Shown: positions 15,418 to 32,399 of the stretch, piece by piece
Layout: each line of letters begins with the position of its first letter
How positions within the stretch are numbered: position 1 is the first letter of the stretch
Assembly: GCA_012519325.1 (NCBI GenBank)
Contig: JAAYQK010000340.1
Location: forward strand, 1 to 36,864
Direction of reading: 5' to 3'
Length of the DNA: 36,864 nt
Source of the DNA: Gracilibacteraceae bacterium
GTDB taxonomy: Bacteria; Bacillota; Clostridia; Lutisporales; Lutisporaceae
Position numbers and translations under genes: made by a program
The notes under the pieces: generated by a model
What the model was told of the DNA's origin: nothing
Seen by the model: the letters and a program-made list of their open reading frames with translations, nothing else
The model's database searches: none

Positions 15418-15455
15418 TACAGAACCTCCTTATATATTGATATCCTAATAATATC

Positions 15456-15484
15456 ATTTTATGGTAAAATATGCTACTTGAAAA
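15456..15484 (-). promoter_or_regulatory. Candidate promoter of the secreted-protein cassette (mirror copy)
   Basis: Minus-strand TTTTCA (15479-15484), 17-bp spacer, TAAAAT (15456-15461). Confidence 0.4.
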
Positions 15485-15491
15485 ATTGCAT

Positions 15492-15542
15492 AAAAAAAGG
15501 ATGTTGCAATACCATAAAACTAGTATTTAACAATATCCTTTT
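15492..15542 (-). terminator. Terminator after typA (mirror copy)
   Basis: AAAAGGAT/ATCCTTTT outer stem with imperfect inner pairing, then a U-rich tail on the minus strand. Confidence 0.7.
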
Positions 15543-15571
15543 ACTTCGGGTTTCGGGGTTGCGAGGTATGC

Positions 15572-17137
15572 CTACTGTAAAAATTTATTTCTTGCCTTTG
15601 CCCGGAGGCTGCTGTCCAATATCTTCTTTCTAAGTCTTATTGACTCAGGAGTTACTTCTACAAGCTCATCTGCCGTAATAAATTCCAGGCATTCCTCAAG
15701 GCTCATCTGCTTATAAGGAGTCAGCCTCAATGCCTCATCCGACCCCGCAGCTCTCATATTTGTCACATGCTTTTTCTTGCAGACATTTACTTCTATATCG
15801 TCGGATTTTGCGTTTTCCCCAACAATCATTCCTTCATACACCTGTACCCCTGGGCCAATAAACAAGCAGCCCCTCTCCTGAGCATTGTAAAGTCCGTAAG
15901 TCGTAGTCTCGCCGCTTTCAAAGGCAACAAGAGAGCCCCGGGTTCTTTCGGGAATTTCACCCTTGTATTCCTCGTAGCCATGGAAAATATGGTGCATAGT
16001 GCCGTTACCCTTTGTATCGGTCATGAACTGTGACCTGTATCCTAATAACCCTCTTGCAGGTATTTTGAACTCAAGGCGCAAATATCCGTCGCTGCTGTTG
16101 CTCATATTCATCATTTCTGCTTTTCTGAGACCTAATTTTTCCATAACAACTCCCATGAATTCCTCGGGAATTTCAATTATAAGATGCTCTATGGGCTCGC
16201 AGATAACACCGTTTATATTCTTCATAATGACTTTAGGCTTTGATACCTGAAACTCATAACCCTGTCTCCTCATTGTTTCAATCAGTATTGAAAGGTGCAA
16301 TTCTCCTCTTCCTGAAACCTCAAAGGCGTCGGGAGAATCTGTTTCCGTAAGCTTCATTGCCACATTCGTTTCCAATTCCTTGAATAATCTTGCTCTTAAA
16401 TGCCTTGAAGTGACATAATTTCCTTCACGACCTGCAAAATGGCTGTCATTTACACTGAAGGTCATGGAAATTGTTGGCTCATCAATGTTGACGAAGGGTA
16501 TTGCTTCAGGATTTTGAATATCGCATATGGTTTCTCCGATATTAATATCTTCTATGCCTGAAACGGCAATTATATCTCCAAGAAATGCCTCCTGGACCTC
16601 TATCCTCTTGAGTCCCATGAAGCTGTAAATTCTGTTCAGCTTGACACTCTGCAGGGTTCCGTCCCTCTTGCAGATGGCAGCACTCATGCCCGAAGCTGCT
16701 CTTCCCCTTTCAATTCTTCCTATGGCAATCCTGCCGACGTATTCATCATATTCAATAGCAGTGACAAGCATCTGAAAAGGGCCTTCCACATCTCCACTGG
16801 GAGGTTCCACATAGGATATTATCGTATCAAAAATAGGCCTTAAATCGCAAGACTCAACCTTCATATCCATTTTTGCCACTCCTTGTTTTGCAGACACATA
16901 TACAATTGGAAATTCCAGCTGCTGGTCATCTGCACCAAGCTCTATGAACAAGTCTATTATTTCATCAATCACTTCTTCAATTCTCGAATCCGGCCTGTCA
17001 ATTTTATTTATAACTACAATGGGCTTTAATTTTAATTCCAAAGCCTTTTTCAGGACGAAACGCGTCTGCGGCATCGGCCCCTCTGCAGCATCTACAATCA
17101 GAAGCACGCTGTTTACCATCTTCAGAACCCGTTCCAC
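15572..17137 (-). pseudogene. typA: TypA/BipA, part after the premature stop (mirror copy)
   Basis: 521 codons carrying G4, G5, the EF-G-like domains and the TypA C-terminal domain, with no P-loop. The GTG at 17135-17137 directly follows the in-frame TAA. Confidence 0.85.
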
Positions 17138-17404
17138 TTAACCGCCAAAATCCGCATGCCCTGGAGTATCAACTATGTTTATCTTAATATTGTTATATAT
17201 TACCGCAGTGTTTTTTGCGAGTATGGTTATACCTCGCTCTCTTTCAAGATCATTTGAATCCATGACTCTTTCCAATACTTTTTCATTTGCCCTGAAGGTA
17301 CCGCTCTGTCTTAAAAGTCCGTCCACCAAGGTAGTCTTGCCATGATCCACATGAGCTATTATTGCTACATTTCTAATATCTTCTCTTATTGATTTTTTCA
17401 TCAT
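17138..17404 (-). pseudogene. typA: TypA/BipA, N-terminal piece (mirror copy)
   Basis: 88 codons with G1-G3 of the translational GTPase, ended by TAA (17138-17140) at the Glu after DFGG. Because the arms are copies, the same lesion here is not independent confirmation. Confidence 0.85.
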
Positions 17405-17424
17405 ATCTACTCCAGTATTTATTA

Positions 17425-18369
17425 TCAAGTAAGGATTTTCATAGCCTTCGGAATAAGTTCAAACATAGCATCAGCTCTGCCGGGGATTTCCCCATCCACT
17501 TCAATAAGGCCCCTGCCGCTGCTTGTTACCTTAACCCTGCTTCCTCTGTAATACTTAAGCTTTGGATGGCTCATATGCTTTCCTTTATATATCAGAGGAA
17601 AGCTCTTGATAATATCAGGCTTGCTTAAATTTCCCAGGATAATTATATCAAAAACCCCATCATCCGGCATGGCATCGGGGGCCACCATCATTCCGCCGCC
17701 AAAGTATTTTCCGTTTGCAACGACTACACTGCTAATAATCTCATTTAAAATGATTTTATCATCTATTATCACTTCAAAGTTCTTATTCTCATACATAAAA
17801 ACAGTGCTTATCGTTCCGAGCATGAAGGACAAAAAACCTGAAAACCTCTTTGAATGTTTGTTTACCCTGTCTGCAGTCTCTGCGCCTATGCCGATGTCCG
17901 CAACATTAAGAAAATATCTTACGGATTTATTCCCTTCCGCATCGAAAAAGCTCAAACGTCCAACATCTATTTGCCTTTCCCGGTTTCTTTGCAGAATTGC
18001 CAGAAAATCTTCTATACCTTTATTTATTCCGAGTGTTTTAATAAAGTCGCAGCCTGTTCCTCTTGAAAATACAACAAGCCTGGAATTCTCGTCAATGAGA
18101 CTGCCCTTCTCAAAAAAGCCGTTGGCTACTTCATTCATTGTACCATCCCCACCGACGGATACAATTGTCTTATATCCCATCTTTAATGCCTGCCTTGAAA
18201 GCTCAGATGCATGTCCAGGGTATTCGGTCATTACAGCCTCAAATTCAAAGCCTGCATCCGATAAAGCCTTTTTATATGCAGGCCATTCCCTGGCTGTAGC
18301 TTTATTTGCCGAAGCAGGATTTACTATTATATACATATTACTTATAACATCTGTATTCATTTTTTCCAT
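17425..18369 (-). CDS. Diacylglycerol kinase-family lipid kinase (mirror copy)
   Basis: 314-aa lipid kinase with GGDGT (73-77), GTGCDF (104-109) and VDGE (291-294). Its start codon faces the start of its twin across a 126-bp gap that holds only the two rnj tails. Confidence 0.88.
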
Positions 18370-18378
18370 AGCATTACC

Positions 18379-18432
18379 CTATATTTCCATAATAATCGGA
18401 AGAATCATTGGATTTCTCTTGGTCCTTTCATA
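18379..18432 (-). pseudogene. rnj: Ribonuclease J, last 17 codons (mirror copy)
   Basis: The minus-strand frame from the axis encodes YERTKRNPMILPIIMEI and a TAG. It meets its twin head-to-head at 18432/18433, so neither has any upstream coding sequence. Confidence 0.6.
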
Positions 18433-18444
18433 TATGAAAGGACC
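18421..18444. other. Palindrome axis / fold-back junction
   Basis: The central 12 + 12 bases are GGTCCTTTCATA and TATGAAAGGACC, joined without spacer. The right half is in-frame coding sequence for the C-terminus of ribonuclease J, so the axis lies inside a gene and not at a natural replicon end. No telomere-like, IS-end or recombinase-site sequence is visible around it. Confidence 0.9.
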
Positions 18445-18486
18445 AAGAGAAATCCAATGATTCTTCCGATTATTATGGAAATATAG
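18433..18486 (+). pseudogene. rnj: Ribonuclease J, last 17 codons only (cut by the junction)
   Basis: The frame starting at the axis reads YERTKRNPMILPIIMEI and stops at TAG (18484-18486). This closely resembles the conserved C-terminal tail of clostridial RNase J, a 5'-3' exonuclease/endonuclease of the metallo-beta-lactamase/beta-CASP fold that matures and degrades RNA. The identification rests on recall of that tail and on context: rnj often lies just upstream of the mltG-trmR-trhP-udk group in Clostridia. The catalytic domains are absent because the sequence folds back here. The lipid kinase start follows after 9 bases, suggesting one operon. Confidence 0.6.
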
Positions 18487-18495
18487 GGTAATGCT

Positions 18496-19440
18496 ATGGA
18501 AAAAATGAATACAGATGTTATAAGTAATATGTATATAATAGTAAATCCTGCTTCGGCAAATAAAGCTACAGCCAGGGAATGGCCTGCATATAAAAAGGCT
18601 TTATCGGATGCAGGCTTTGAATTTGAGGCTGTAATGACCGAATACCCTGGACATGCATCTGAGCTTTCAAGGCAGGCATTAAAGATGGGATATAAGACAA
18701 TTGTATCCGTCGGTGGGGATGGTACAATGAATGAAGTAGCCAACGGCTTTTTTGAGAAGGGCAGTCTCATTGACGAGAATTCCAGGCTTGTTGTATTTTC
18801 AAGAGGAACAGGCTGCGACTTTATTAAAACACTCGGAATAAATAAAGGTATAGAAGATTTTCTGGCAATTCTGCAAAGAAACCGGGAAAGGCAAATAGAT
18901 GTTGGACGTTTGAGCTTTTTCGATGCGGAAGGGAATAAATCCGTAAGATATTTTCTTAATGTTGCGGACATCGGCATAGGCGCAGAGACTGCAGACAGGG
19001 TAAACAAACATTCAAAGAGGTTTTCAGGTTTTTTGTCCTTCATGCTCGGAACGATAAGCACTGTTTTTATGTATGAGAATAAGAACTTTGAAGTGATAAT
19101 AGATGATAAAATCATTTTAAATGAGATTATTAGCAGTGTAGTCGTTGCAAACGGAAAATACTTTGGCGGCGGAATGATGGTGGCCCCCGATGCCATGCCG
19201 GATGATGGGGTTTTTGATATAATTATCCTGGGAAATTTAAGCAAGCCTGATATTATCAAGAGCTTTCCTCTGATATATAAAGGAAAGCATATGAGCCATC
19301 CAAAGCTTAAGTATTACAGAGGAAGCAGGGTTAAGGTAACAAGCAGCGGCAGGGGCCTTATTGAAGTGGATGGGGAAATCCCCGGCAGAGCTGATGCTAT
19401 GTTTGAACTTATTCCGAAGGCTATGAAAATCCTTACTTGA
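18496..19440 (+). CDS. Diacylglycerol kinase-family lipid kinase (YegS/BmrU/DgkB-like)
   Basis: 314 aa, a usual length for soluble bacterial diacylglycerol/lipid kinases. These use ATP to phosphorylate diacylglycerol or a related lipid at the inner membrane face, returning it to phospholipid or lipoteichoic-acid metabolism. Visible family signatures are NPASA near residue 17, the nucleotide-binding GGDGT at 73-77, GTGCDF at 104-109 (GTGND in most relatives), NVADIGIG at 155-162, the glycine-rich FGGG segment near 223 and VDGE at 291-294. There is no signal peptide or membrane helix. The ATG at 18496 follows a modest AGGG; a second ATG three codons in (18505) is possible. It begins 9 bp after rnj, and its stop is 20 bp before the typA ATG, so the three are probably co-transcribed. 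Substrate is not determinable from sequence. Confidence 0.88.
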
Positions 19441-19460
19441 TAATAAATACTGGAGTAGAT

Positions 19461-19727
19461 ATGATGAAAAAATCAATAAGAGAAGATATTAGAAATGTAG
19501 CAATAATAGCTCATGTGGATCATGGCAAGACTACCTTGGTGGACGGACTTTTAAGACAGAGCGGTACCTTCAGGGCAAATGAAAAAGTATTGGAAAGAGT
19601 CATGGATTCAAATGATCTTGAAAGAGAGCGAGGTATAACCATACTCGCAAAAAACACTGCGGTAATATATAACAATATTAAGATAAACATAGTTGATACT
19701 CCAGGGCATGCGGATTTTGGCGGTTAA
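19461..19727 (+). pseudogene. typA: TypA/BipA GTPase, N-terminal piece ending at a premature TAA
   Basis: These 88 codons are the start of TypA (BipA), a ribosome-associated translational GTPase related to EF-G and LepA that helps 50S assembly and stress or cold growth. G1 (AHVDHGKTT, 17-25), the switch I/G2 region (RERGIT) and G3 (DTPGH, 79-83) are intact. After [10 protein letters not shown] family members continue with EVERV; here the Glu codon GAA is TAA (19725-19727), a single G-to-T difference. The ATG ATG at 19461 follows a TGGAG site. Without G4 and G5 this piece should not be a working GTPase. A sequencing or assembly error is a real alternative, because the rest of the gene is undamaged. 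Confidence 0.85.
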
Positions 19728-21293
19728 GTGGAACGGGTTCTGAAGATGGTAAACAGCGTGCTTCTGATTGTAGATGCTGCAGAGGGGCCGATGCCGCAGA
19801 CGCGTTTCGTCCTGAAAAAGGCTTTGGAATTAAAATTAAAGCCCATTGTAGTTATAAATAAAATTGACAGGCCGGATTCGAGAATTGAAGAAGTGATTGA
19901 TGAAATAATAGACTTGTTCATAGAGCTTGGTGCAGATGACCAGCAGCTGGAATTTCCAATTGTATATGTGTCTGCAAAACAAGGAGTGGCAAAAATGGAT
20001 ATGAAGGTTGAGTCTTGCGATTTAAGGCCTATTTTTGATACGATAATATCCTATGTGGAACCTCCCAGTGGAGATGTGGAAGGCCCTTTTCAGATGCTTG
20101 TCACTGCTATTGAATATGATGAATACGTCGGCAGGATTGCCATAGGAAGAATTGAAAGGGGAAGAGCAGCTTCGGGCATGAGTGCTGCCATCTGCAAGAG
20201 GGACGGAACCCTGCAGAGTGTCAAGCTGAACAGAATTTACAGCTTCATGGGACTCAAGAGGATAGAGGTCCAGGAGGCATTTCTTGGAGATATAATTGCC
20301 GTTTCAGGCATAGAAGATATTAATATCGGAGAAACCATATGCGATATTCAAAATCCTGAAGCAATACCCTTCGTCAACATTGATGAGCCAACAATTTCCA
20401 TGACCTTCAGTGTAAATGACAGCCATTTTGCAGGTCGTGAAGGAAATTATGTCACTTCAAGGCATTTAAGAGCAAGATTATTCAAGGAATTGGAAACGAA
20501 TGTGGCAATGAAGCTTACGGAAACAGATTCTCCCGACGCCTTTGAGGTTTCAGGAAGAGGAGAATTGCACCTTTCAATACTGATTGAAACAATGAGGAGA
20601 CAGGGTTATGAGTTTCAGGTATCAAAGCCTAAAGTCATTATGAAGAATATAAACGGTGTTATCTGCGAGCCCATAGAGCATCTTATAATTGAAATTCCCG
20701 AGGAATTCATGGGAGTTGTTATGGAAAAATTAGGTCTCAGAAAAGCAGAAATGATGAATATGAGCAACAGCAGCGACGGATATTTGCGCCTTGAGTTCAA
20801 AATACCTGCAAGAGGGTTATTAGGATACAGGTCACAGTTCATGACCGATACAAAGGGTAACGGCACTATGCACCATATTTTCCATGGCTACGAGGAATAC
20901 AAGGGTGAAATTCCCGAAAGAACCCGGGGCTCTCTTGTTGCCTTTGAAAGCGGCGAGACTACGACTTACGGACTTTACAATGCTCAGGAGAGGGGCTGCT
21001 TGTTTATTGGCCCAGGGGTACAGGTGTATGAAGGAATGATTGTTGGGGAAAACGCAAAATCCGACGATATAGAAGTAAATGTCTGCAAGAAAAAGCATGT
21101 GACAAATATGAGAGCTGCGGGGTCGGATGAGGCATTGAGGCTGACTCCTTATAAGCAGATGAGCCTTGAGGAATGCCTGGAATTTATTACGGCAGATGAG
21201 CTTGTAGAAGTAACTCCTGAGTCAATAAGACTTAGAAAGAAGATATTGGACAGCAGCCTCCGGGCAAAGGCAAGAAATAAATTTTTACAGTAG
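19728..21293 (+). pseudogene. typA: TypA/BipA GTPase, remainder of the gene after the premature stop
   Basis: 521 codons continue TypA in the same frame directly after the TAA. G4 (NKID) is at about 44-47 and G5 (SAK) at 82-84, followed by the beta-barrel and EF-G III/V-like domains and the TypA-specific C-terminal domain (GLYNAQERG, GENAKSDDIEVNV). Joined to the upstream 88 codons and the missing Glu, the gene would make about 610 aa, the normal length. The first codon is GTG, and a weak GGCGG lies 5 bp before it, so stop-restart initiation is imaginable, but the product would lack the P-loop. The absence of other lesions implies a recent mutation or a base-call error. Confidence 0.85.
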
Positions 21294-21322
21294 GCATACC
21301 TCGCAACCCCGAAACCCGAAGT

Positions 21323-21373
21323 AAAAGGATATTGTTAAATACTAGTTTTATGGTATTGCAACATCCTTTTTTT
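21323..21373 (+). terminator. Terminator after typA
   Basis: AAAAGGAT (21323-21330) pairs with ATCCTTTT (21363-21370), with further imperfect pairing inside (TTGTT with AACA; AATAC with GTATT), and the 3' arm runs into a T-tract. It lies 29 bp past the typA stop and separates the rnj-kinase-typA unit from the secreted-protein cassette. Confidence 0.7.
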
Positions 21374-21380
21374 ATGCAAT

Positions 21381-21409
21381 TTTTCAAGTAGCATATTTTA
21401 CCATAAAAT
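21381..21409 (+). promoter_or_regulatory. Candidate sigma-A promoter for the secreted-protein cassette
   Basis: TTTTCA (-35, four of six consensus bases), a 17-bp spacer and TAAAAT (-10, five of six) lie just after the typA terminator and 38 bp before the next start codon. The overlapping CATAAAAT also fits the CATAnnnT -10 of sporulation sigma-E/K promoters, so control could be sporulation-linked. This is by-eye matching only. Confidence 0.4.
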
Positions 21410-21447
21410 GATATTATTAGGATATCAATATATAAGGAGGTTCTGTA

Positions 21448-24400
21448 ATGAAGAGAGAACAAAGCAGAAGATTTATCGCCTTTGTTCTGTGCTTTATTAT
21501 GATATTTGCGCAAATACAGCCTATCTACGCAGCTCAGAACCTGTCATTAAAGCCAGGAACAAAATCAGAGGACACAAAGGCGTTAACGCCCAAACAACCG
21601 ATAAAAGCACCAGCCTCATCGGATAAGCCGGATTCCTCCGAGGACTATACTTCGAAGGAGCCTGTGCCCACCCAAAATATGCTGCCTATTCAGACAGTTC
21701 CCGATAGTATGCCGCAGGTACAGACGGCCCCCGGAATCAACTTGCCTCTTGAGGAGATATTCATAAAACCAAAGATTCAGTCTCAGGAGGCTCCGGCTAC
21801 CTTCAATGTAAACTATAAATTGCAGGATAATGTAGTGCTTGCAGATAACAAGCTTGGGATTGTGCTTGAAAATCTTAAGCTGCCTGAGGAGTTGAGTACA
21901 AATACGCAGGTACCGGGTATAAGAAATATAGATAAGCTGGAAAAATCCGCATTAGTTGACAACAGCCTGTTTGCATCCCAAATTCCCGGCTATGAAAAGG
22001 ATAAGGTATATTTTGACACTGTAAACGGTGTAGCAATGAAAACCGTAGAAAAAGTAAAGTTAAGGAAACCCGGTGCCGCTTCTGCAAGCAACTTTGTTTC
22101 CATCAAGAGGCCCCAGCTTAACGAGGTTTTTAAAGATTTTGAGATCGCGAAACAGTCTATAAAATTGACAAAAGGTAATGTTTCCGGCTATGCCAACGGA
22201 GTTGAGGAATGTACCATAAAACGTGAGTTTCATCCAAACCTTGAACTTGAACAGTCAAGGCTGGAACAGCTGAAAAAAAGAAAATATATAGCATACAACG
22301 GCAGGATGCTGACAAGTATGTTAAGCGGGGAAAAGGAAAAAGAAGAATATGTGCCCAAACATTTATCTGACCCTCTGGTGGAATTCAGATTTAATGATGT
22401 TCCTCTTGCCGCCTATGATGAGGATGGTTTTGATGTTGAAATAACCCTTGACGGATATTTGGGCATAGACAGCATTACTGTTGATGCGGAGTATGAATTC
22501 GTAGGAGATTATTATTTTGCCGTAAATACCGGGCAGGAGCTCAATCTGACAGTCAATGCGGAGATAAGGGGGCAGAAGGATCTTATAGTACCAATATTTG
22601 GAATTGACCTGGATGCCAAGGTTGCCCGCATTACAGGAGGAATATTCCTGGTAGTGGGGGTTAATGGAGATATTGAGATTGTTACCTCGGTGACACAATG
22701 GGCAAAAAACAGGCTGGGGGTCGAAGGCAGTACGGTAGTATATCTCCCAACACCTCCCAAACCGATTTGCGAGTTTTATGACAAAGGCGTGGATGTGGAT
22801 GTTTCCCTTGCGGGAGAAATAAATATGGATATGAGGGCCGGAGTTATATTAGGTCTTGAGGTGCTTGGATGGGAATGTGTAGGAGCTGCCGCTTTGGCAG
22901 GTATTGGTATGAATTGCGTTGCACAGGACCTTATAATTAATATCGATGTCTACTTTATTGTTGATATTTATGCCACCTTGTTTGGTAAACGGATAGACAT
23001 TTATAACGATATTTGTTATTTATATCAGATGCAGAAGCCCAATACCAAGGGATACAGGATTGTATTCAATGAAGCCTGTGCGTACAGGGACAGCGTATGG
23101 GGTCATATAGCAAAATGGACGGGACCAAGTGAATCCGAAGGTGTAAAGGACTTTAAAGGGAATCTGGAGATAACCTTTAGAAGAACGGAAGGAGAAGATG
23201 CGGGTTATACGAAGACTTTTCCTGTCAGCAGCGATTCTAAGGGGAACTTTGTGCTTACGAATGTCAAGCAAAAGGGATTTGATATGAGAAAGGGCGATAT
23301 GATATGGGTAAGCAAGGTGAATTTTGAGTCCCTTGGAGAGGCATATGTCACAACCACCTTCCCCTTCAATTTTGTAACTATAGATTATGCCGATTTCTTC
23401 AATGATGAGGCCAAGGGCTATGTAAGTCAGGCTAAAGTTAGAAAATGGCCTTCCGATGAATATGAATACATCACTTACAGAGGGAATGTGGAACCGGTGG
23501 TTGAGAATACGAATTTCACAAAGCCGCCATTTTATGCCCCCGGAATATGTGACGAAAAAGGAGAATTTACTATATACTATCCCTTCAGACCCGAACATCT
23601 GGTGTCCGGAATGATTTCAAGCGACGGGTTCAGCGTAATGTCCTGGAATAAGGTAAAGCCTGACGTGAGCTTTACCGGTAAAAGGATTGTTGAACCCATT
23701 GACAGGAAGCAGTATACGGATGAAGACGGCAGGCCTGTTGATCAAAGGAGGGAAATTGAGCACTTTCTTGTAATAAACCAGCGGGGAACAAAGAAGGTTG
23801 ATACTCAGGGACATTATGATTCTTACTATAGTATATATAGCCCCGGTTCTTACCATTATGATCCCATATCCGGCAGGCCCTGGGTTCCTCCGGTGACAGT
23901 AGGGAGCAGAGAATTTAATGAACGTATAGTTCCATTGCCTGACGCCAAGGGAACCTCTGTGCTGTCAAAGAATTATACTACTGAATGGAGCTGGAACGGT
24001 TACAGCAGCAGCGGTGCAGTTACATTTTCACCAACAGGGCAGCTTCAAATGGGCGTTAATGCTTCATCACAATTGCAGCCTGCGGAGGACTGGGCATCGC
24101 AGTTACAGCTTGAGGACAGCTGGATATCTCAGGCTGAGCTTATACCGATAAGCTTTACTTATGCTTCAGAGGAGCCGAAGCCGGCTGAGGACCATTTTAT
24201 GGATATTGATAAAATGATAGGGCTTAACTCAATAGTCAGGCAAGGCAAAGTAACCTTTTACCATGAGGGTGAGGCAATAGAAGTATACGACCCTGAGGAT
24301 ATCGGGGAACCCGCCAAGGGACGCAAGATGGAACACATCAATAATCCTGTTGCAGAGCTTATGATAAACAGGATATGGAGCAGGATCAATATGGCTAAAC

Positions 24401-24495
24401 TTAATACAATGAGACAGTTCTTCCAAAGCCGTCAGTATGATGCTCAGCAGCTGCCGGGTGCAGGCCAGATGAACCCGGGAGACATAATGCAGTAA
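21448..24495 (+). CDS. Large secreted protein of unknown function (1015 aa)
   Basis: I do not recognise this family. The ATG follows an ideal AAGGAGG. Residues 1-29 form a Sec signal peptide: basic start (MKREQSRR), hydrophobic core, likely cleavage after Ala at IYAA. Residues 30-110 are a Lys/Pro/Ser/Gln-rich low-complexity linker. The next 250 or so residues look like mixed beta structure. Around 455-520 is a Gly/Ala-rich, more hydrophobic stretch with several Cys (WECVGAAALAGIGMNCV). Residues 530-800 are rich in aromatic beta-strand-like sequence. A short repeated SQLQ-type segment lies at about 873-897. There is no LPXTG sorting signal, SLH domain or C-terminal membrane helix, so it is presumably released or loosely surface-bound. 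It pairs with the stalk-domain gene 72 bp downstream, and terminators flank the pair. A spore-coat, adhesion or envelope role is conjecture. Confidence 0.8.
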   Translation: MKREQSRRFIAFVLCFIMIFAQIQPIYAAQNLSLKPGTKSEDTKALTPKQPIKAPASSDKPDSSEDYTSKEPVPTQNMLPIQTVPDSMPQVQTAPGINLPLEEIFIKPKIQSQEAPATFNVNYKLQDNVVLADNKLGIVLENLKLPEELSTNTQVPGIRNIDKLEKSALVDNSLFASQIPGYEKDKVYFDTVNGVAMKTVEKVKLRKPGAASASNFVSIKRPQLNEVFKDFEIAKQSIKLTKGNVSGYANGVEECTIKREFHPNLELEQSRLEQLKKRKYIAYNGRMLTSMLSGEKEKEEYVPKHLSDPLVEFRFNDVPLAAYDEDGFDVEITLDGYLGIDSITVDAEYEFVGDYYFAVNTGQELNLTVNAEIRGQKDLIVPIFGIDLDAKVARITGGIFLVVGVNGDIEIVTSVTQWAKNRLGVEGSTVVYLPTPPKPICEFYDKGVDVDVSLAGEINMDMRAGVILGLEVLGWECVGAAALAGIGMNCVAQDLIINIDVYFIVDIYATLFGKRIDIYNDICYLYQMQKPNTKGYRIVFNEACAYRDSVWGHIAKWTGPSESEGVKDFKGNLEITFRRTEGEDAGYTKTFPVSSDSKGNFVLTNVKQKGFDMRKGDMIWVSKVNFESLGEAYVTTTFPFNFVTIDYADFFNDEAKGYVSQAKVRKWPSDEYEYITYRGNVEPVVENTNFTKPPFYAPGICDEKGEFTIYYPFRPEHLVSGMISSDGFSVMSWNKVKPDVSFTGKRIVEPIDRKQYTDEDGRPVDQRREIEHFLVINQRGTKKVDTQGHYDSYYSIYSPGSYHYDPISGRPWVPPVTVGSREFNERIVPLPDAKGTSVLSKNYTTEWSWNGYSSSGAVTFSPTGQLQMGVNASSQLQPAEDWASQLQLEDSWISQAELIPISFTYASEEPKPAEDHFMDIDKMIGLNSIVRQGKVTFYHEGEAIEVYDPEDIGEPAKGRKMEHINNPVAELMINRIWSRINMAKLNTMRQFFQSRQYDAQQLPGAGQMNPGDIMQ

Positions 24496-24567
24496 TGATG
24501 CTTTCATACCAGCACATATTCTTGCTTTCCCGCGGTGTACAAAAATCATAGAATAAGGAGGAGAAGA

Positions 24568-25278
24568 ATGAATAAAAGATTATTGGTATTTGCCCTATGT
24601 ATGGTATTTATACTAGGGATTGGAGCAGGTGCAGCGGGAGCTGCCGTAAGAGAAGAGATCACTGCAGCAATTGAATATGAAGTGAAAATAAAGCTGAACG
24701 GGAAAGATTTTATTCCAATTAATGTAGACGGCTCCCCTATGTATCCCATAAGCTACAAGGGCAGCAATTATCTTCCGGTAAGGGCATTAGCCAACGCCCT
24801 TTCAGTTGCCGTGGATTATGATCCTGTCAACAGAGTAATATACCTTGGAGAAAAAGACAGGATTCCTCTTGAAGGTAAGGACTATGTAAAAAACTATACA
24901 AGTCAGTTCAGTACCGACAAAAACCAGCTAAATGTAAATGGAAAGCAATATGACTGGGGTATAGTATACACAGGAACAGAAGGTTATTATGAATTCAGCG
25001 GTTTTATATATCCTAACGGCAAATATCAAAAATTCGGCGGGGTGGCCTGCATGAACGATATGGACAACAGTACTGATGAAGTTACAATAAGAATAAGAGA
25101 GAAGGACTATGAGGGTAAAGTGCTTAAAGAGCTGGTGGTGCATAAGGGTGAATCCATACCCTTCGAAATTGATATTCCCAACATAAAAACCCTTTATATA
25201 CAGAATCTGGTCTACGATAGAGTTCCAAAATCCACAAACCCAGATCAAATGCTAATTGCTGAACCTTATTTCAAATAA
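24568..25278 (+). CDS. Secreted protein with copper-amine-oxidase-N-like (stalk) domain
   Basis: 236 aa from the ATG at 24568, which follows GGAGGAG; an upstream in-frame GTG (24535) has no such site and would spoil the signal peptide. The N-terminus MNKRLLVFALCMVFILG, then an Ala/Gly-rich stretch ending GAAGAA, is a typical export signal. The next 70 residues (VKIKLNGKDF, YLPVRALANALSVAVDYDP, VIYLGEK) carry the pattern of the Cu_amine_oxidN1/stalk domain common in clostridial surface proteins: a presented ligand loop, then VPVRxxxExLG-like helix and strand. It is a protein-interaction module, not an amine oxidase. The C-terminal 140 residues look like a beta sandwich of unknown function. Probably co-transcribed with the 1015-aa protein; a terminator follows directly. 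Confidence 0.8.
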   Translation: MNKRLLVFALCMVFILGIGAGAAGAAVREEITAAIEYEVKIKLNGKDFIPINVDGSPMYPISYKGSNYLPVRALANALSVAVDYDPVNRVIYLGEKDRIPLEGKDYVKNYTSQFSTDKNQLNVNGKQYDWGIVYTGTEGYYEFSGFIYPNGKYQKFGGVACMNDMDNSTDEVTIRIREKDYEGKVLKELVVHKGESIPFEIDIPNIKTLYIQNLVYDRVPKSTNPDQMLIAEPYFK

Positions 25279-25290
25279 GCTGCTTTTAAT

Positions 25291-25339
25291 AAAGCCGGAC
25301 AGTTTATGAAGGAAAACCCTTCAAACTGCCCGGCTTTTT
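25291..25339 (+). terminator. Strong terminator closing the secreted-protein cassette
   Basis: AAAGCCGG and CAGTTT (25291-25305, one mismatched A between them) pair with AAACTG and CCGGCTTT (25323-25337). An inner GAAGG/CCTTC extension tops the stem and TTTTT follows. It starts 12 bp after the stop codon. The A-rich 5' side would let it work on both strands. Confidence 0.9.
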
Positions 25340-25355
25340 CATGCTATTATTAAAC

Positions 25356-25384
25356 TTGTCAAAATATGTTGAGCATTATATAAT
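25356..25384 (+). promoter_or_regulatory. Sigma-A promoter of the mltG-trmR-trhP-udk operon
   Basis: TTGTCA (25356-25361, five of six), a 17-bp spacer and a perfect TATAAT (25379-25384) stand right after the cassette terminator. A start site near 25391 would leave an untranslated leader of about 90 bases before mltG. This is the best promoter match in the window. Confidence 0.75.
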
Positions 25385-25480
25385 TAATTAGATGTTTTAC
25401 ATTAAACATTTTCATTCATATGTCGTGAAATGATAAATCGTTTTTAGTGACATATATATTAAAGAAAGAAGTGCTTGCAT

Positions 25481-26503
25481 ATGAGAAAAAAAGCAAGGTT
25501 TAGCATTTTAAGGTTCTTGTTGTTCTGCTTACTGATTACCGCAGCTTCTGCCTATATGTATTATAACAACGGGCTGGACGCATTAAATAAAATTGAAGCA
25601 AATGCAAAAGAAATAGTGATACCAAAAGGCAGTACAGTCAAATCAATATCTAAAATACTTAAAGATGAAAATATGATAAAGGACAGCTTTGTTTTTGAGC
25701 TGTATTGCAAGATAAATGAAAAATCAGATAAGATAAAGGCAGGTAAATACCGAATCAGCAATTCAATGGAGGTTCCTGAAATAGTTGAAGTCCTTGTTTC
25801 AGGAAAAGCTCTTATTGATACAGTGAGGTTCACAATACCCGAAGGATACAATCTGGCTCAGATAGTTGATAAAATAAACAGTCTTGGGGTTGTAAGCTCC
25901 GAGAGTATAAATGAGGCATTAAAAGCCGGCAGATATGAATATGAGTTCATAGAACAAATACCTGACAGGGAAAACAAACTGGAAGGATATTTGTTTCCGG
26001 ACACATACGAAATATACAGGGATACAACGGCAGAGGCCATTATCAAAAAGCTTCTGGGCCGTTTTGACGATGTATTTACGGAGGAATTCAGAAAAAGAGC
26101 GGAAGAACTGAATATGAGCATCGATCAAGTGGTTACCCTTGCTTCAATTATAGAAAGAGAAGCAAAGCTGGATTCGGAAAGAAAGCTTATATCAGGAGTA
26201 TTTCATAACAGGCTGAAAAGGAAAATGCTGCTTCAAAGCTGCGCCACCGTTCAATATTTGCTAAAAGAGCCGAAGGAAGAATTGCTTTATGAGGACTTGG
26301 AGATTGATTCGCCATATAACACATATAAATACCCGGGTTTGCCTCCAGGGCCCATCGCATCCCCAGGCCTTGCGGCAATAGAGGCAGCACTGTATCCTGA
26401 GAAAACAGACTTTTTATATTTTTTTGCACGGAATGACGGTTCCCATGTTTTTACAAAGACCTTTGATGAGCATATTAATGCCCAGAATAAATATAGAAAG
26501 TAA
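25481..26503 (+). CDS. mltG: Endolytic murein transglycosylase MltG (YceG-like)
   Basis: 340 aa. MltG cleaves nascent glycan strands within the chain at the outer face of the membrane, releasing new peptidoglycan from its lipid anchor. A single N-terminal membrane helix (about 9-27) is followed by a LysM-like segment (IVIPKGSTVKSISKIL) and the catalytic YceG domain. EGYLFPDTY lies near 158-166, the catalytic Glu is E215 in ASIIEREAK, and the family tail YNTYKYPGLPPGPIASPG is present. I start at the ATG at 25481 rather than the TTG two codons before; the site upstream (GAAAGAAG) is weak. It heads an operon resembling B. subtilis yrrL-yrrM-yrrN-yrrO-udk, behind its own sigma-A promoter. Confidence 0.93.
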   Translation: MRKKARFSILRFLLFCLLITAASAYMYYNNGLDALNKIEANAKEIVIPKGSTVKSISKILKDENMIKDSFVFELYCKINEKSDKIKAGKYRISNSMEVPEIVEVLVSGKALIDTVRFTIPEGYNLAQIVDKINSLGVVSSESINEALKAGRYEYEFIEQIPDRENKLEGYLFPDTYEIYRDTTAEAIIKKLLGRFDDVFTEEFRKRAEELNMSIDQVVTLASIIEREAKLDSERKLISGVFHNRLKRKMLLQSCATVQYLLKEPKEELLYEDLEIDSPYNTYKYPGLPPGPIASPGLAAIEAALYPEKTDFLYFFARNDGSHVFTKTFDEHINAQNKYRK

Positions 26504-26513
26504 TCCAAAAACT

Positions 26514-26540
26514 ATAGAAGAATGCGTCGCATTCTTCTAT
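26514..26540. repeat. 27-bp palindrome between mltG and trmR
   Basis: ATAGAAGAATGCG (26514-26526) and CGCATTCTTCTAT (26528-26540) are exact reverse complements around one T. It starts 10 bp after the mltG stop and ends 17 bp before the trmR GTG. No T-tract follows. It could be an mRNA-stabilising hairpin or attenuator between the genes, or an operator. Confidence 0.85.
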
Positions 26541-26557
26541 TTATGCGAGGTGATAAT

Positions 26558-27223
26558 GTGGCAAACATAAATTACGACTATATTGACAGGTTCCTGCTAG
26601 GAATGATACCTGAACAAAGTGGGATATTAAAGGAAATGGAAGAGTATGCAAAGGAGAACAATGTTCCCATCATTACTCCCGATATAGCACGTTTGCTGAC
26701 AGTGCTTATAAAGTCTGCCAATGTAAGGACAATACTGGAGATAGGTACGGCAATAGGTTATTCTGCCGTTCATGTGTGCCTGTGTGCGGGAGAAGGATGC
26801 GCTATCACTACAATTGAAAGGAATGAGGAATCGGCAGGCATCGCATCGGATTTTATAAAGAAGGCAGGTATGGAGGATAGAATCAAAATTGTAACAGGGG
26901 ATGCAGAAGTAATATTAAATGATATACCCGGCAGTTTTGATATGATATTTGTAGATGCAGCTAAAGGGCAGTATATGGATTTTATGAAGAAAAGCATAGA
27001 CAAGCTGAGGATCGGAGGATTGTTCGTATGTGATAATGTGCTTTTCAGAGGAATGGTAGCCGATAGGAGTTTGCTTATCAGAAGAAAAATCACCATTGTA
27101 AAAAGGCTAAAAAAGTTTCTGAGCTTCATTTCCTCTTGTGAGAGCCTGGCGACTGCGATTATCCCAATGGGGGACGGCATATCCATAAGCTGCAAGCTTA
27201 AGGAGGTGGAATTCAATGAATAG
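26558..27223 (+). CDS. trmR: tRNA 5-hydroxyuridine O-methyltransferase (TrmR/YrrM-like)
   Basis: 221 aa from a GTG at 26558. That start has AGGTGA four bases upstream; the ATG at 26522 lies inside a palindrome and adds a non-homologous 12-residue lead. The protein is a class I SAM-dependent methyltransferase of the O-methyltransferase-3 (catechol-OMT-like) family: EIGTAIGYSA (61-70) binds SAM, E87 would hold the ribose, and D133, D159 and N160 form the usual metal site. In B. subtilis the gene in this position (yrrM/trmR) methylates 5-hydroxyuridine at tRNA position 34 to 5-methoxyuridine, widening wobble decoding. Its overlap with the trhP-like gene, whose family makes the hydroxyuridine, supports that role. 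A small-molecule substrate cannot be excluded from sequence alone. Confidence 0.85.
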   Translation: MANINYDYIDRFLLGMIPEQSGILKEMEEYAKENNVPIITPDIARLLTVLIKSANVRTILEIGTAIGYSAVHVCLCAGEGCAITTIERNEESAGIASDFIKKAGMEDRIKIVTGDAEVILNDIPGSFDMIFVDAAKGQYMDFMKKSIDKLRIGGLFVCDNVLFRGMVADRSLLIRRKITIVKRLKKFLSFISSCESLATAIIPMGDGISISCKLKEVEFNE

Positions 27224-28451
27224 ACCGGAAATACTCGCTCCCGCGGGAAATCTTGAAAAATTGAAGATGGCAGTAATTTATGGAGCCGATGCGGTATATA
27301 TCGGCGGTGAAAAATATGGCCTGAGGGCTGCCGCAGGAAATTTTACACTTGATGAAATCAAAGAAGGTGCTAAGTTTGCACATGATAACGGCAGAAGAGT
27401 ATACGTCACCGTAAACATTATTCCCCATAATGAAGATTTGGAAGGATTGGAGGAATATTTAAAAAGCCTGGAAGATGCGGGAGCCGATGCACTTATTGTA
27501 TCAGATCCCAGCATTATCATGACGGCCAGGGAAGCAGTGCCTGATATGCCGCTTCACCTGAGCACCCAGGCGAGCAATACTAATTATAAAAGTGCGGAGT
27601 TCTGGCACATTCAAGGAATAAAAAGGATTGTGCTGGCAAGAGAATTAAGCTTTGAAGAAATAAGGGAAATCATAAGCAAGTCTTCGGAAGGCTTGGAATT
27701 TGAGGCATTTGTACATGGAGCAATGTGCATTTCATACTCAGGCAGATGCTTGCTCAGCAATTACATGACAGGCAGGGATGCAAACAGGGGTGAATGTGCG
27801 CAGCCTTGCAGGTACAAGTACTATGTTATGGAAGAAAAGCGTCCCGGACAGTATATGCCGGTTGATGAAGACAATCGAGGGACATATATATTTAATTCCA
27901 GAGATTTATGCATGATCGAATACATACCGGAGTTGGTGGAGTCAGGGTTAAAAAGCCTGAAAATTGAAGGCAGGATGAAAAGCTCATATTATGTGGCATC
28001 TGTTGTCAGAGCATACAGAATGGCTTTGGACAGCTACATTTCAGATCCTTCCAAATATGAATTCAGGAAAGAATGGCTTGATGAGCTTTCAAAGGCCAGC
28101 CACAGAGAATTTGGCACAGGCTTTTATTTCGGCAAGCCCGGTCCGGAAGGACAGATTTATGAATCCGGTTCATATATAAGGGATTATGCTTTTGTGGGTT
28201 TGGTGCTGGATTATGATAACAAGACAGGTATTGCAACTGTAGAGCAAAGAAACAAAATGCTTGTAGGAGACGAGATTGAGGTAATCGGGCCCCGAAGGGA
28301 GATGTTCACCCAAATAATCGAAAAAATGTGGAATGATGAGGGCATTGAAATAACGGCCGCTCCGCACCCTCAGCAAATTGTAACAATTAAAATGAAGAAG
28401 CCCGTTGAAAGGCATGATATATTGAGAAGGGAGCGAAAAGATGGTGAGTGA
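27216..28451 (+). CDS. trhP: U32 peptidase-family tRNA hydroxylation protein (TrhP-like)
   Basis: 411 aa, ATG after AAGGAGGTG, overlapping trmR by 8 bp. The N-terminus [15 protein letters not shown] and GADAVYIGG mark family U32. The cysteines C171, C178, C194 and C232 match the pattern of the Fe-S-binding residues in E. coli TrhP (YegQ), with an extra C198 beside them. TrhP proteins use prephenate to install 5-hydroxyuridine at tRNA U34, despite the peptidase name. Translational overlap with trmR on one side and udk (11 bp) on the other indicates tight coupling. B. subtilis has two adjacent U32 genes (yrrN, yrrO); only one is present here and it is of the full YrrO/YegQ-like size. Confidence 0.88.
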
Positions 28452-29076
28452 TGGAAATTATAAGAAACCTCTTATAATTGGAATAGCAGGAGGAACAGGC
28501 TCAGGCAAGAGTACTGTTTCCAAGGCAATTTTGGACAGTATACCGGAGAAAAATGTAGTGATAATAGAACAAGACTGCTATTATAAGGATCAAAGCCATC
28601 TGCCTCCTGCAGAAAGGGTGAATGTGAATTATGACCACCCCCTGGCTTTTGATAATGAGCTTCTGATAGACCATGTATTAAAGCTTATTAATGGACAAGC
28701 CATTGAAAAGCCTCAGTACGATTTCACAGTACATAACAGAAAAAAAGAAACATTGATGGTTGAGCCGAAAGACGTAATAATTCTGGAAGGCATTTTGATT
28801 CTGGATTCTCCAAAGCTAAGGGAATTAATGGATATTAAGATTTTTGTTGATACGGATGCTGATGTGAGGATTATAAGAATAATAACCAGAGATATGAGGG
28901 AAAGGGGCAGATCACTGGAATCAGTAATCAACCAATACCTGAATGTTGTCAAGCCGGCACACAACGAGTTCTGCGAGCCTACAAAAAGATATGCGGACAT
29001 CATTATACCTGAAGGAGGCTACAATAAAGTAGCGATTGATATAATGGTTACAAAGGTCAAATCGATTATTGAATAA
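28441..29076 (+). CDS. udk: Uridine kinase
   Basis: 211 aa, the normal length of Udk. It phosphorylates uridine and cytidine with ATP or GTP in cytosolic pyrimidine salvage. The P-loop GGTGSGKS is at 17-24 and [10 protein letters not shown] and NYDHPLAFD are the nucleoside-binding segments. VILEGILIL holds the Walker-B-like strand, and [13 protein letters not shown] is the lid with its arginines. The ATG overlaps the end of trhP and is preceded by AAGGGAG. It sits last in the mltG-trmR-trhP-udk order conserved across Firmicutes. A hairpin starts at its stop codon. Confidence 0.96.
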
Positions 29077-29114
29077 CCTCCCACAATCTGACAATACTAA
29101 GATTGAGGGAGGTT
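29075..29114 (+). promoter_or_regulatory. Hairpin enclosing the ribosome binding site of the PBP gene
   Basis: AACCTCCC then CAATCT (29075-29089) pair with AGATTG then GGGAGGTT (29100-29114), with one A-A mismatch and a 10-base loop. The 3' arm contains the GGGAGG ribosome binding site (29107-29112) of the gene starting at 29120, and the 5' arm overlaps the last bases of udk. The structure could block translation of the PBP until opened, or act as a weak terminator (only TTTT follows). The pairing is seen; the function is inferred. Confidence 0.65.
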
Positions 29115-29119
29115 TTGTC

Positions 29120-30898
29120 ATGACCGGAATTATGAAGCTATTAAGTAAAAAAGCTGAATCAGCGAACAATAAAGGAGAAGAAAACAGGGATATGGAGCTC
29201 CTTACGCTTCCGGGTACCAGACTGTATAGAAAGAATAATTATATGCTCATTCATAAGAAAAGGCTTCAGCTAATAGGCATTTTGTTCATTGCTGCATACG
29301 GGCTTCTGTTGTGCAGGCTTTTCTACATTCAGGTATATAAGGGCAGATACTACAGTGAAAGGGCTGTTAGGCAGAGAATGGTACATATACCTATTTCCTC
29401 AAACAGAGGGATAATATATGACAGAAATATGATACCGATTACTGATAGAGAAATCAAAAAAGTTGTTATTGCTTATCCGACTTTTGTACATGATAAAACA
29501 GCGGCGATTGAAAGTATTTCCAAAGCTTGCGGCATTAAAAAGGAAGATGTTGAAAAGAAAATGACAGGTTCTGCAGATACGGTGGAGTTCGTATGTGAGG
29601 CCGGGCAGAACGAATATATGTCTCTTATTGAAAGCGGCAGGATAAGAGGTGTGATAGCCGTAGAAAAAAGGCTGAGGTATTCCGACGATAATATTGCAAG
29701 GCATGTAATAGGCTATATAGGGAAAACGGATAAAATAGGCCAAATGGGTATTGAAAAAAGCATGAACAGTTACTTGGAAAGCAGCGGCAGCGACAGCATT
29801 GCAGCCGTAGTGGACAGCGGAAAGAATATCATACGGGGATTGGGCTTCAGGAAGGTTGAAGCTTCAGAAGACGGTGTAAGCTACAGCTTGAAGCTTACGC
29901 TTGATTATCATATTCAGAACATAATAGAAACTGCAATGGAAAGAGAAAATATTCAAGGCTCAATTGTAGTAATGGATGTCAAGAATGGTGATATATTGGG
30001 AATGGCAAGCAAGCCTGATTTTGATCAGGATAGCGTGGACAAATACATAAAGAGCAGCGGAAATGAGCTTATCAATAAATCTATTTGGCAATTTGATCTG
30101 GGCTCAATATTCAAGACTGTTGTGGCTGCAGCTGCAATAGAAGGAGGATATGTAAATACGGAACAAAAATATGAATGCCATGGATATATAGATGTAGGCG
30201 GCAGCAGGATAAAGTGTGCAACTCACAAAACTCATGAAGGAAGAGAGATTAATATGAAAGAAGCTTTTGCCCTGTCCTGCAACAGTACATACATACAAAT
30301 AGGGATGGAAACAGGTGCGGAAAACATATTGGAAATGGCTGAAAAACTGGGCTTCGGACAAAAACTGTGCTTTACCATACCGGAAGAAAAACCCGGTTAC
30401 ATACCTGGCGTTCAAGAGGACGGCATAGGGAATATATCCATAGGACAAGGGAAAATTCAGGTTACACCTCTGCAGGTAACATGTATGATGGCCACTATTG
30501 CAAACAATGGTATCAGGAATGATCCGCAGCTAATAGATTCACTTATTACGGAAAAGGGGCTGACAGTTAAAAAGCTGGAAAGATCCAGACCACAGATTGT
30601 ACTGAATCCCATTACCTCAATGCTGTTGAAGTATATGCTACGTGAAGTAACAGTATCAGGAACCGGGAAGCAAGCAAATATCGAGGAACTTGGAGGCAGC
30701 TGCGGCAAGACCAGTTCAGCCCAGACTGGAATAAATGAAGGGGAGGTTGTTCATGGTTGGTTTGCAGGTTTTGTACCATATAAAAATCCAAAGTATGCCA
30801 TAACTGTATTCATATATAACGGACAGTCGGGGGGAAGTGCAGCAGCTCAGTTATTTAAGGAGGTGGCTTCAAAAATACTAACCACCGTTAAGAGGTAG
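29120..30898 (+). CDS. Penicillin-binding protein, class B transpeptidase (PBP2/SpoVD-like)
   Basis: 592 aa from the ATG at 29120, which has GAGGGAGG seven bases upstream; an upstream in-frame TTG (29069) lacks a site. A cytoplasmic tail of about 45 residues precedes one membrane helix (about 49-68), then the PBP dimerisation domain (RQRMVHIPISSNRGIIYDRN) and the transpeptidase domain that cross-links peptidoglycan outside the membrane. Active-site motifs are SIFK (nucleophile S329), SCN (386-388) and KTS (530-532), where most class B PBPs have KTG. There is no PASTA domain. The SpoVD/FtsI architecture fits cell-division or spore-cortex synthesis, and the neighbouring sigK makes a sporulation role attractive, but the assignment is open. 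A hairpin covers its ribosome binding site. Confidence 0.9.
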   Translation: MTGIMKLLSKKAESANNKGEENRDMELLTLPGTRLYRKNNYMLIHKKRLQLIGILFIAAYGLLLCRLFYIQVYKGRYYSERAVRQRMVHIPISSNRGIIYDRNMIPITDREIKKVVIAYPTFVHDKTAAIESISKACGIKKEDVEKKMTGSADTVEFVCEAGQNEYMSLIESGRIRGVIAVEKRLRYSDDNIARHVIGYIGKTDKIGQMGIEKSMNSYLESSGSDSIAAVVDSGKNIIRGLGFRKVEASEDGVSYSLKLTLDYHIQNIIETAMERENIQGSIVVMDVKNGDILGMASKPDFDQDSVDKYIKSSGNELINKSIWQFDLGSIFKTVVAAAAIEGGYVNTEQKYECHGYIDVGGSRIKCATHKTHEGREINMKEAFALSCNSTYIQIGMETGAENILEMAEKLGFGQKLCFTIPEEKPGYIPGVQEDGIGNISIGQGKIQVTPLQVTCMMATIANNGIRNDPQLIDSLITEKGLTVKKLERSRPQIVLNPITSMLLKYMLREVTVSGTGKQANIEELGGSCGKTSSAQTGINEGEVVHGWFAGFVPYKNPKYAITVFIYNGQSGGSAAAQLFKEVASKILTTVKR

Positions 30899-30912
30899 AA
30901 ATATTTAGATAT

Positions 30913-30930
30913 ACATAAAAATTTTTATGT
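30913..30930. repeat. 18-bp AT-rich palindrome between PBP and sigK
   Basis: ACATAAAAA is followed at once by its exact complement TTTTTATGT, 14 bp after the PBP stop. It could be part of a terminator or a binding site for a dimeric regulator such as SpoIIID or Spo0A upstream of sigK; neither can be shown here. Confidence 0.5.
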
Positions 30931-30966
30931 TAAATATGTATACAGGCACACATTCAGAATGAAAAT

Positions 30967-30974
30967 CATATAAT
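30967..30974 (+). promoter_or_regulatory. Possible -10 element upstream of sigK
   Basis: CATATAAT contains a perfect sigma-A TATAAT and also fits the sigma-E -10 pattern CATAnnnT, which is what sigK genes normally use in the mother cell. I see no convincing -35 at the right distance, so this is only a place to look. Confidence 0.28.
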
Positions 30975-31062
30975 TCTAGTAGGCGAAGTTTTCCACTGTA
31001 TAAACCTTGTTCTTATGGACTTGTACATGGCAGACTTCTTTAAAATTCGGAGGTGTGCTTCT

Positions 31063-31770
31063 TTGCTTTTCCTTATAGCCTCTCTTATCGTTTTCACAAT
31101 CAAGGATCTATGCCTTTTATTCGGTTATATCCAAAATGTAAATTCATTTCCACAGCCTCTTACAGCTGAAGAGGAGCAGTATTATCTTGAAGAATACAAA
31201 AAGGGCAGCGAAGACGCAAAAAATATACTGATAGAACGAAATCTAAGACTTGTCGCACACATAGTCAAAAAATATGTAAATACGGGAAGAGAAATTGATG
31301 ACTTGATTTCCATTGGAACTATAGGCCTCATTAAAGCAATAATAACCTTTGACGAGGAGAAGGGTACAAGACTTGCAACCTATGCCGCAAGATGCATAGA
31401 GAATGAGATTCTTATGACTATCAGGGCTTCTAAGAAAACAAAAACTGAAGTTTCCCTCCATGATCCCATCGGGATTGACAAAGAAGGAAATGAAATCAGT
31501 TTAATTGATATATTAGGAAGCGATTCGGACGTAATACTGGATGAGGTAGAACTCAAGATTCAGATAAAGAAGCTGTATCAAAGAATGGATACAGCCCTGA
31601 AAAAAAGAGAACGGCTGGTTCTTGAGCTTAGGTACGGACTGCTTAACGGAATCAGCAAAACTCAAAGGGAAATAGCCGACATGCTGGGAATTTCCAGATC
31701 ATATGTATCCAGAATAGAAAACAGAGCAATCAGAAAGCTGCACAAAGAACTTTACAATGAAAACAGTTAA
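31063..31770 (+). CDS. sigK: RNA polymerase sporulation sigma factor SigK (pro-sigma-K)
   Basis: 235 aa, matching known SigK. I choose the TTG at 31063 because GGAGGTG sits seven bases upstream; the longer frame from ATG 31015 has no binding site and adds 16 unconserved residues. The protein begins with a hydrophobic pro-sequence (LFLIASLIVFTIKDLCLLFGY), then NSFPQPLTAEEE where mature SigK starts. Region 2 (RNLRLVAHIVKKY, DLISIGTIGLIKAI, ATYAARCIENEILM) binds core polymerase and the -10. Region 4 ends in a helix-turn-helix (QREIADMLGISRSYVSRIE) for the -35. SigK drives late mother-cell genes for cortex, coat and lysis. The gene is continuous, so no skin-type element interrupts it. SigE is the main look-alike, but the short pro-sequence and NSFPQPL favour SigK. 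Confidence 0.92.
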   Translation: MLFLIASLIVFTIKDLCLLFGYIQNVNSFPQPLTAEEEQYYLEEYKKGSEDAKNILIERNLRLVAHIVKKYVNTGREIDDLISIGTIGLIKAIITFDEEKGTRLATYAARCIENEILMTIRASKKTKTEVSLHDPIGIDKEGNEISLIDILGSDSDVILDEVELKIQIKKLYQRMDTALKKRERLVLELRYGLLNGISKTQREIADMLGISRSYVSRIENRAIRKLHKELYNENS

Positions 31771-31845
31771 GAATAGAATAGAGATACAGGGTAACGAGCG
31801 GTGTTTGCGGCAGCATTTATCCAATATATGCAATTGAGGGAAGAT

Positions 31846-32343: not shown

Positions 32344-32357
32344 GAAGAATTATTGGC

Positions 32358-32399
32358 AATAAATAAAATCCTGTGAGTATTTGCAGGATTTTATTTATT
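32358..32399. terminator. Terminator after yqeG (16-bp perfect stem)
   Basis: AATAAATAAAATCCTG (32358-32373) and CAGGATTTTATTTATT (32384-32399) are exact complements around a 10-base loop. The A/T-rich outer stem supplies a T-rich 3' side in both directions, although a clean run of T is lacking. It ends the sigK-yqeG unit. Confidence 0.75.

Follow-up and report, generated by a model that had tools for sequence, protein, structure and literature searches.

Why do two genes for exported proteins stand between the conserved housekeeping genes typA and mltG (yceG) in a contig of a Gracilibacteraceae bacterium, how did they come to be there, and what might their products do? The window, i.e. the whole stretch of DNA that was analysed (36,864 nucleotides), is the entire contig C196 of genome G000, and all analyses of the locus take the right arm of this stretch only. 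On balance we consider it rather probable that the first gene, with 1015 codons, encodes a wall-associated surface protein and the second, with 236 codons, a small wall- or glycan-binding partner, and that the two have been moved as one insulated cassette.

The pair as an insertion in a housekeeping region

The surroundings of mltG were fetched, where obtainable, for 22 genomes of the Lutispora family. The pair is present in two of them, G000 and G002, both placed in one genus; typA is followed by mltG in 14, and the slot could not be read in six. Thirteen of the empty slots run directly from typA to mltG (G003, G004, G007, G008, G009, G012, G013, G014, G016, G017, G018, G019 and G021), some with typA clipped by the contig end, and the fourteenth is that of G001, in which the contig opens in the last typA codons and continues to mltG. 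The six others are G005, with 233 bp before mltG that do not match typA, and G006, G010, G011, G015 and G020, in which mltG is absent or fragmented. Among the 16 resolvable genomes, 14 have an empty slot, and since typA is followed by mltG in these relatives without the pair, the proposal of the initial annotation that a self-contained cassette of two genes is inserted into a conserved housekeeping region is supported.

Open reading frames (ORFs) on the + strand confirm the two genes for exported proteins that separate typA from mltG, with the program-made ORF list beginning the second gene at a GTG instead, which gives 247 residues. Signal peptides were judged by eye from a basic start, a hydrophobic stretch and small residues before the likely cut, and for the 1015-aa protein only, a helix at residues 2–23 of the structural model backs the assignment. 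The terminators that had been placed on each side of the pair hold up well, the hairpin on the typA side being more stable than shuffled sequences with z -3.4 (folded stretch 21318–21378) and the one 3' of the pair with z -6.0 (folded stretch 25284–25345); neither is listed by a simple terminator scan. The gap between the two genes is 72 nt and contains no stable hairpin (83 nt across the gap, z +0.5 against shuffles). The promoter earlier ascribed to the pair is weak, as the best candidate upstream (21381–21409) has 9 of 12 consensus matches and the number of promoter-like sites in the region, 11, is no higher than the 11.5 ± 3.8 found in shuffles. Just 3' of the insert is the native promoter-like site of mltG (Table 1), and a like promoter sequence precedes mltG in G001, G003 and G004, all of which are without the insert. 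With this layout the pair would be transcribed as an insulated cassette for cell-surface proteins.

Repeats of at least 14 nt in the region 21150–26600 are short and imperfect and none bracket the insert. The two genes that fill the interval between the terminators match no integrase or transposase family in Pfam (small overlapping ORFs lay outside the scan), and no RNA family or tRNA is found in the right arm, which speaks against insertion at a tRNA site. Plasmid and phage searches gave no match to the 1015-aa protein, and no relative was confirmed among viral contigs with two peptide patterns. An integrase-borne mobile element, or plasmid or phage cargo, was therefore rejected, there being no end repeats, no integrase or transposase match and no homologues in mobile records.

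A near-identical tract in two species

The pair and mltG lie in a tract that is nearly identical in G000 and G002, except for two clusters of single-nucleotide polymorphisms (SNPs) at 23997–24619 and 25571–25642. In 11 successive segments of 250 nt from 21183 the identity is 98–100%, and of the 21 segments starting at 21183–26183 all but two reach 94.4% or more, compared to 75–92% in the well-aligned 250-nt segments outside the tract. As a control, 48 aligned 250-nt segments from other sampled contigs, with 30 readable contigs of G000 compared to a portion of G002, have a mean identity of 85.3%, and none is above 94%. The left break is near 21165 inside typA, with 86.5% identity before and 99.2% after it, and the right break is at 26515, just past the stop codon of mltG. 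In the first 2448 nt of the 1015-aa gene the two genomes have six differing nucleotides in synonymous and six in non-synonymous codons, and in its last 600 nt, which is the SNP cluster, 15 and 16 respectively, compared to 162 and 68 in the 1830 nt of typA. With so few synonymous differences in comparison with typA, selection at the protein level cannot account for the identity of the tract.

G002 has its closest relative in G001, with identities of 95.6% in omt, 92.6% in prtC, 94.5% in udk and 94.9% in pbp; the corresponding values between G000 and G002 in these four genes just downstream are 80.3, 83.6, 82.8 and 84.1%. Although closest to G002, G001 is without the cassette, and positions 25650–26503 in mltG of G002 are only 82.8% identical to G001, the same value as that given by mltG of G000. 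There is thus both a sharp change of identity in each flank and a conflict with the neighbouring genes, as expected of a recombination tract, and the sequences indicate that a recent homologous recombination between two species carried the pair, an exchange for which the support is good as far as data from metagenome-assembled genomes (MAGs) allow. The tract was probably imported into G002 from a G000-like lineage, since G001 is closer yet cassette-free and mltG of G002 differs from that of G001 to this extent, but a third donor may have supplied both genomes. The cassette would then pass between related species by homologous recombination in typA and mltG, and would do so without an integrase.

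The spacer between mltG of G002 and a methyltransferase ORF is about 590 bp (L020:262–852), far longer than in the window or in G001, and its last 181 bp are 95.6% identical to G001; that the extra spacer is leftover mltG was considered and rejected.

Assembly of the contig

The window is one exact inverted repeat, in which positions 1–18432 and 18433–36864 are reverse complements with no loop. The initial annotation had missed both this repeat of 18432 + 18432 and an in-frame TAA in typA (19725–19727); in G002 the typA frame is open over 609 aa. The remainder of the RNase J gene (rnj), which is expected before dgk, is on contig C292 with residues 1–544 and carries an in-frame TAG, and the window holds residues 540–562. 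Contig C292, which has the true upstream sequence, terminates at the fold point with ...GTTCA, the sequence of G002 reads GTTCATATATGAAAG there, and the window has TTTCATATATGAAA at its centre; from a comparison of the three we infer that the contig is a fold-back misassembly at a short natural palindrome, and that its left arm, with the mirror copies of the pair, is an artefact. No palindrome was flagged in any of 30 readable contigs sampled from G000, a further 11 of the 41 sampled being masked to N.

Table 1. Positions of the genes and signals of the locus, numbered from the first nucleotide of the window.
Feature	Position	Strand	Remark
1015-aa exported protein gene	21448–24495	+	from the ORF list
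236-aa exported protein gene	24568–25278	+	counted from the ATG at 24568
typA, flanking housekeeping gene	19464–21293	+	
mltG (yceG), flanking housekeeping gene	25484–26503	+	inside the shared tract
Terminator hairpin with T run, between typA and the pair	21323–21373	+	-15.8 kcal/mol
Terminator hairpin with T run, 3' of the pair	25291–25339	+	-25.9 kcal/mol
Native mltG promoter-like site, TTGTCA-17-TATAAT, just 3' of the insert	25356–25384	+	best site in the region
Tract near-identical to G002, about 5.3 kb	21165–26515	+	98–100% identity outside two SNP clusters
Mirror copy of the 1015-aa gene	12370–15417	-	presumed artefact of the palindromic contig
Mirror copy of the 236-aa gene	11587–12297	-	presumed artefact of the palindromic contig

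The 1015-aa protein and its family

The 1015-aa protein has no match above the cut-off in Pfam and none in NCBIfam, in agreement with the earlier statement that it could not be placed in any family, and its relatives likewise have no such matches except for domains in the G150 homologue. A single-protein search of 61 genomes found relatives in 12, all of which belong to the 22 genomes of the Lutispora family, and two peptide patterns run against named genomes gave 11 loci, including Lutispora saccharofermentans and Lutispora sp. When 391 genomes of the class were searched with a profile, strong matches outside the family were limited to G150 (E 8.9e-50) and G137 (E 6.2e-46). Sixteen further genomes with E-values of 1e-5 to 1e-3 were not counted as relatives; in 14 of these the match covers only the first 90 profile positions or fewer, at the signal-peptide end. 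Apart from the G002 protein the relatives are 17–27% identical over the full length and 19–30% over the core, with invariant positions that include G398, F400, G407, D649, N652, D653, G657 and V659. The G150 homologue (L206:5058–8519) has a fused C-terminal Cu_amine_oxidN1 stalk domain (PF07833, E 8.2e-33), and that of G137 ends, as judged by eye, with a hydrophobic segment and a basic tail. The family is undescribed, and its members are probable bacterial surface proteins.

The protein consists of an N-terminal signal-like helix, a low-complexity linker (about residues 30–115), a core (about 115–530), a putative tandem of immunoglobulin-like (Ig-like) domains (about 534–742) and a C-terminal tail. 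Residues 534–742, the better-modelled part, resemble tandem Ig-like domains in a model of low confidence. The first Foldseek match is the C region of Bap (E 7.5e-5 with the full model, 1.9e-3 with the core model), and VIA gives Z 8.5 against Bap for the full model (rmsd 9.5, 158 aligned) and Z 8.0 for the core model. Residues 311–526, approximately, are predicted with low confidence as a meander of nine long strands. The fold lists are full of Ig and fn3 domains and barely probe residues 115–530, and the core alignment had no match among PDB sequences at E up to 1. The protein would be exported and stand on or in the wall or S-layer, and would belong among the long, beta-rich proteins with Ig-like domains that serve adhesion or surface coating.

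The 236-aa protein

The label of stalk-domain protein given to the second gene product is a fair one, with a match to Cu_amine_oxidN1 (PF07833, about residues 59–126, E 1.2e-4) of 22.4 bits, just below the cut-off of 24.2. It is followed by a match to NPCBM/NEW2 (PF08305, about residues 112–234, E 1.6e-4), of 22.1 bits against a cut-off of 23.9. Relatives reach scores above the cut-offs in the same two models, 35.9 bits for L102 (PF07833) and 40.2 bits for L101 (PF08305), and relatives with the same domains are located at loci without the 1015-aa gene. Among PDB sequences there are two weak matches, the best with E 0.026. A remnant of the gene, consisting of the NPCBM part, is present in contig C4 of G021 (L099:8102–8470, 76% identity over 123 aa), with no remnant of the 1015-aa gene near it, only a chance match with E 0.35. 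Neither protein of the pair has an SLH match in the Pfam scan at E up to 10, and the identification of either as an SLH-anchored S-layer protein, which requires an SLH domain of its own, was rejected. The protein, with its predicted stalk and NPCBM domains, might serve as the wall- or glycan-binding partner of the 1015-aa protein.

Neighbours of the family genes

Sixteen other loci of the 1015-aa family were surveyed, with the window pair and its copy in G002 excluded. By Pfam, a gene for an SLH-domain protein adjoins seven of them (L025, L026, L029, L031, L033, L209 and L210), and in three (L025, L026, L209) this neighbour also has fn3 domains. The other nine, for which only some of the neighbours were scanned, include L021, where the contig end truncates the neighbour and fn3 alone is matched, and L027 and L034 on short contigs; these three are not fully judgeable and are counted as being without SLH. 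AraC-type regulators adjoin L022, L028, L030 and L032, and the scanned neighbour of L023 is a 1648-aa protein with LRR, RCC1, transglutaminase and dockerin domains. The genomes of the family have 17–62 SLH and 5–14 Cu_amine_oxidN1 matches each, and judged from these counts alone a chance adjacency to SLH should be rare. The 236-aa protein may stand in here for the SLH proteins that adjoin other members of the family.

Tandem paralogues of the 1015-aa protein are encoded in L025, L026, L029 and L209. Beside the family genes in L025, L026, L027 and L029 there are also genes for proteins of about 150–300 aa with a GTH-x-H motif, noted by eye.

Weighing of the explanations

Several observations weigh against a wall-associated protein and its partner having moved as one cassette. 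The survey of gene neighbourhoods gave the pair no independent co-occurrence, as the two genes are together only in the window and in G002, in nearly the same DNA; as the initial annotation had itself named a rare joint occurrence as counting against it, this weakens the claim of a pairing. The structural models are poor, with a mean predicted local distance difference test score (pLDDT) of 43.7 for the full length and 57.1 for residues 112–790; other Ig and fn3 proteins tie with Bap at Z 8.0–8.7, among them the unrelated tissue factor with Z 8.2, and by VIA's own guidance a Z of 7–8 is typical without kinship. SLH and Cu_amine_oxidN1 are common modules, so a lone fusion or adjacency is a weak argument, and the four relatives with the best E-values (L022, L023, L024 and L032) have no SLH neighbour among the genes scanned, although the fifth, L033, does. 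Furthermore, in a small cluster of mltG (25560–25650) the sequence of G002 is 82.2% identical to that of G001 but 66.7% to that of G000, which makes the tract a mosaic. Finally, with G000 taken as a MAG with a misassembled contig, a chimera is conceivable. The suggestion that the pair works together therefore stands in part, with the SLH genes beside 7 of 16 loci and the fused stalk of G150 in its favour and the missing co-occurrence against it.

This missing co-occurrence also leads to a possible, though doubtful, alternative in which only the insertion is shared, the stalk protein being a passenger and the 1015-aa protein acting by itself, perhaps in a secreted coat or as a secreted binding protein; the relatives of the 1015-aa gene are indeed without such an adjoining stalk gene in the loci listed. 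It is opposed by the hairpin-free gap of 72 nt with terminators only outside the pair, by the SLH genes at the seven loci, and by the homologue in G150 to which the stalk domain is fused.

Cross-talk in the assembly, by which the block would be a chimera of two co-occurring species and the cassette really be present in one only, appears unlikely. The contig is misassembled at its centre, G002 is a MAG and G000 resembles one (397 contigs, 4% contamination), and the in-frame stops in typA and rnj of G000 could be read in the same way. On either side of the block, however, each contig has a diverged sequence of its own; the block is itself uneven, with scattered SNPs and the two divergent clusters, and the carrier contig of G002 is 56 kb long with a coverage of 41.7, in agreement with 42.9 for another contig in the same bin.

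A pair of spore-coat or exosporium proteins expressed in sporulation, as the initial annotation suggested, is improbable. Genes which we take to encode a SigK-like sigma factor and a SpoVD-like penicillin-binding protein a few kb downstream were counted for it, but the SLH genes beside other loci of the family suggest the wall of vegetative cells instead, a promoter for sporulation was not shown, and nothing in the sequences appears to point to a spore. Least credible of all is vertical inheritance of an ancestral cassette that most lineages lost and strong selection kept identical in two, since, although both carriers belong to one genus, the near-identity extends to synonymous sites, intergenic DNA and mltG and the closer relative G001 is without the cassette.

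Relation to known systems and implications

A more far-reaching proposal, which we put forward tentatively, is that an undescribed family of very large surface proteins with a beta-rich core of its own pairs modularly with varied wall anchors (SLH next door, a stalk next door, a fused stalk, or a membrane tail). In this genus it would be passed from one species to another in the form of an insulated 'surface identity' cassette of two genes lodged between typA and mltG, by which phage receptors or adhesins might be exchanged. Among described systems the closest is the S-layer cassette of Clostridioides difficile, in which surface-protein genes are exchanged by homologous recombination (PMC7677006). 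It differs from the present case, where there are two genes, neither with a wall-binding domain above the Pfam cut-offs, where the exchange is between species 80–84% identical in the neighbouring genes, and where 14 of the 16 genomes with a readable slot have nothing in it.

Bap (C region, BSP domain) and other Ig-like surface proteins are the best structural match of residues 534–742, but the match covers the Ig-like part only, and its Z is borderline, unrelated Ig/fn3 proteins scoring almost as high. The SLH-domain and fn3 S-layer-type proteins of Clostridia have genes adjoining 7 of the 16 other family loci, whereas the window pair lacks an SLH match. The stalk domain PF07833 is also present on OlpC, a scaffoldin of the cell surface, and on its counterpart ScaG (PMC3413522); unlike these, the window pair has no cohesin or dockerin match, and its stalk is just below the Pfam cut-off. 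In the literature on S-layer cassettes, Lutispora, stalk domains or OlpC, no account of this pair was found among the matches listed, from a collection that covers few subscription papers.

The source contig is a warning case of fold-back assembly. The cargo of the insertion is an unnamed protein family and a candidate for the domain databases, with an Ig-like part and an unexplained core. If true, the exchange of this cassette between species of the Lutispora family would show that a route of the C. difficile type shapes the surfaces of mostly uncultured Clostridia.

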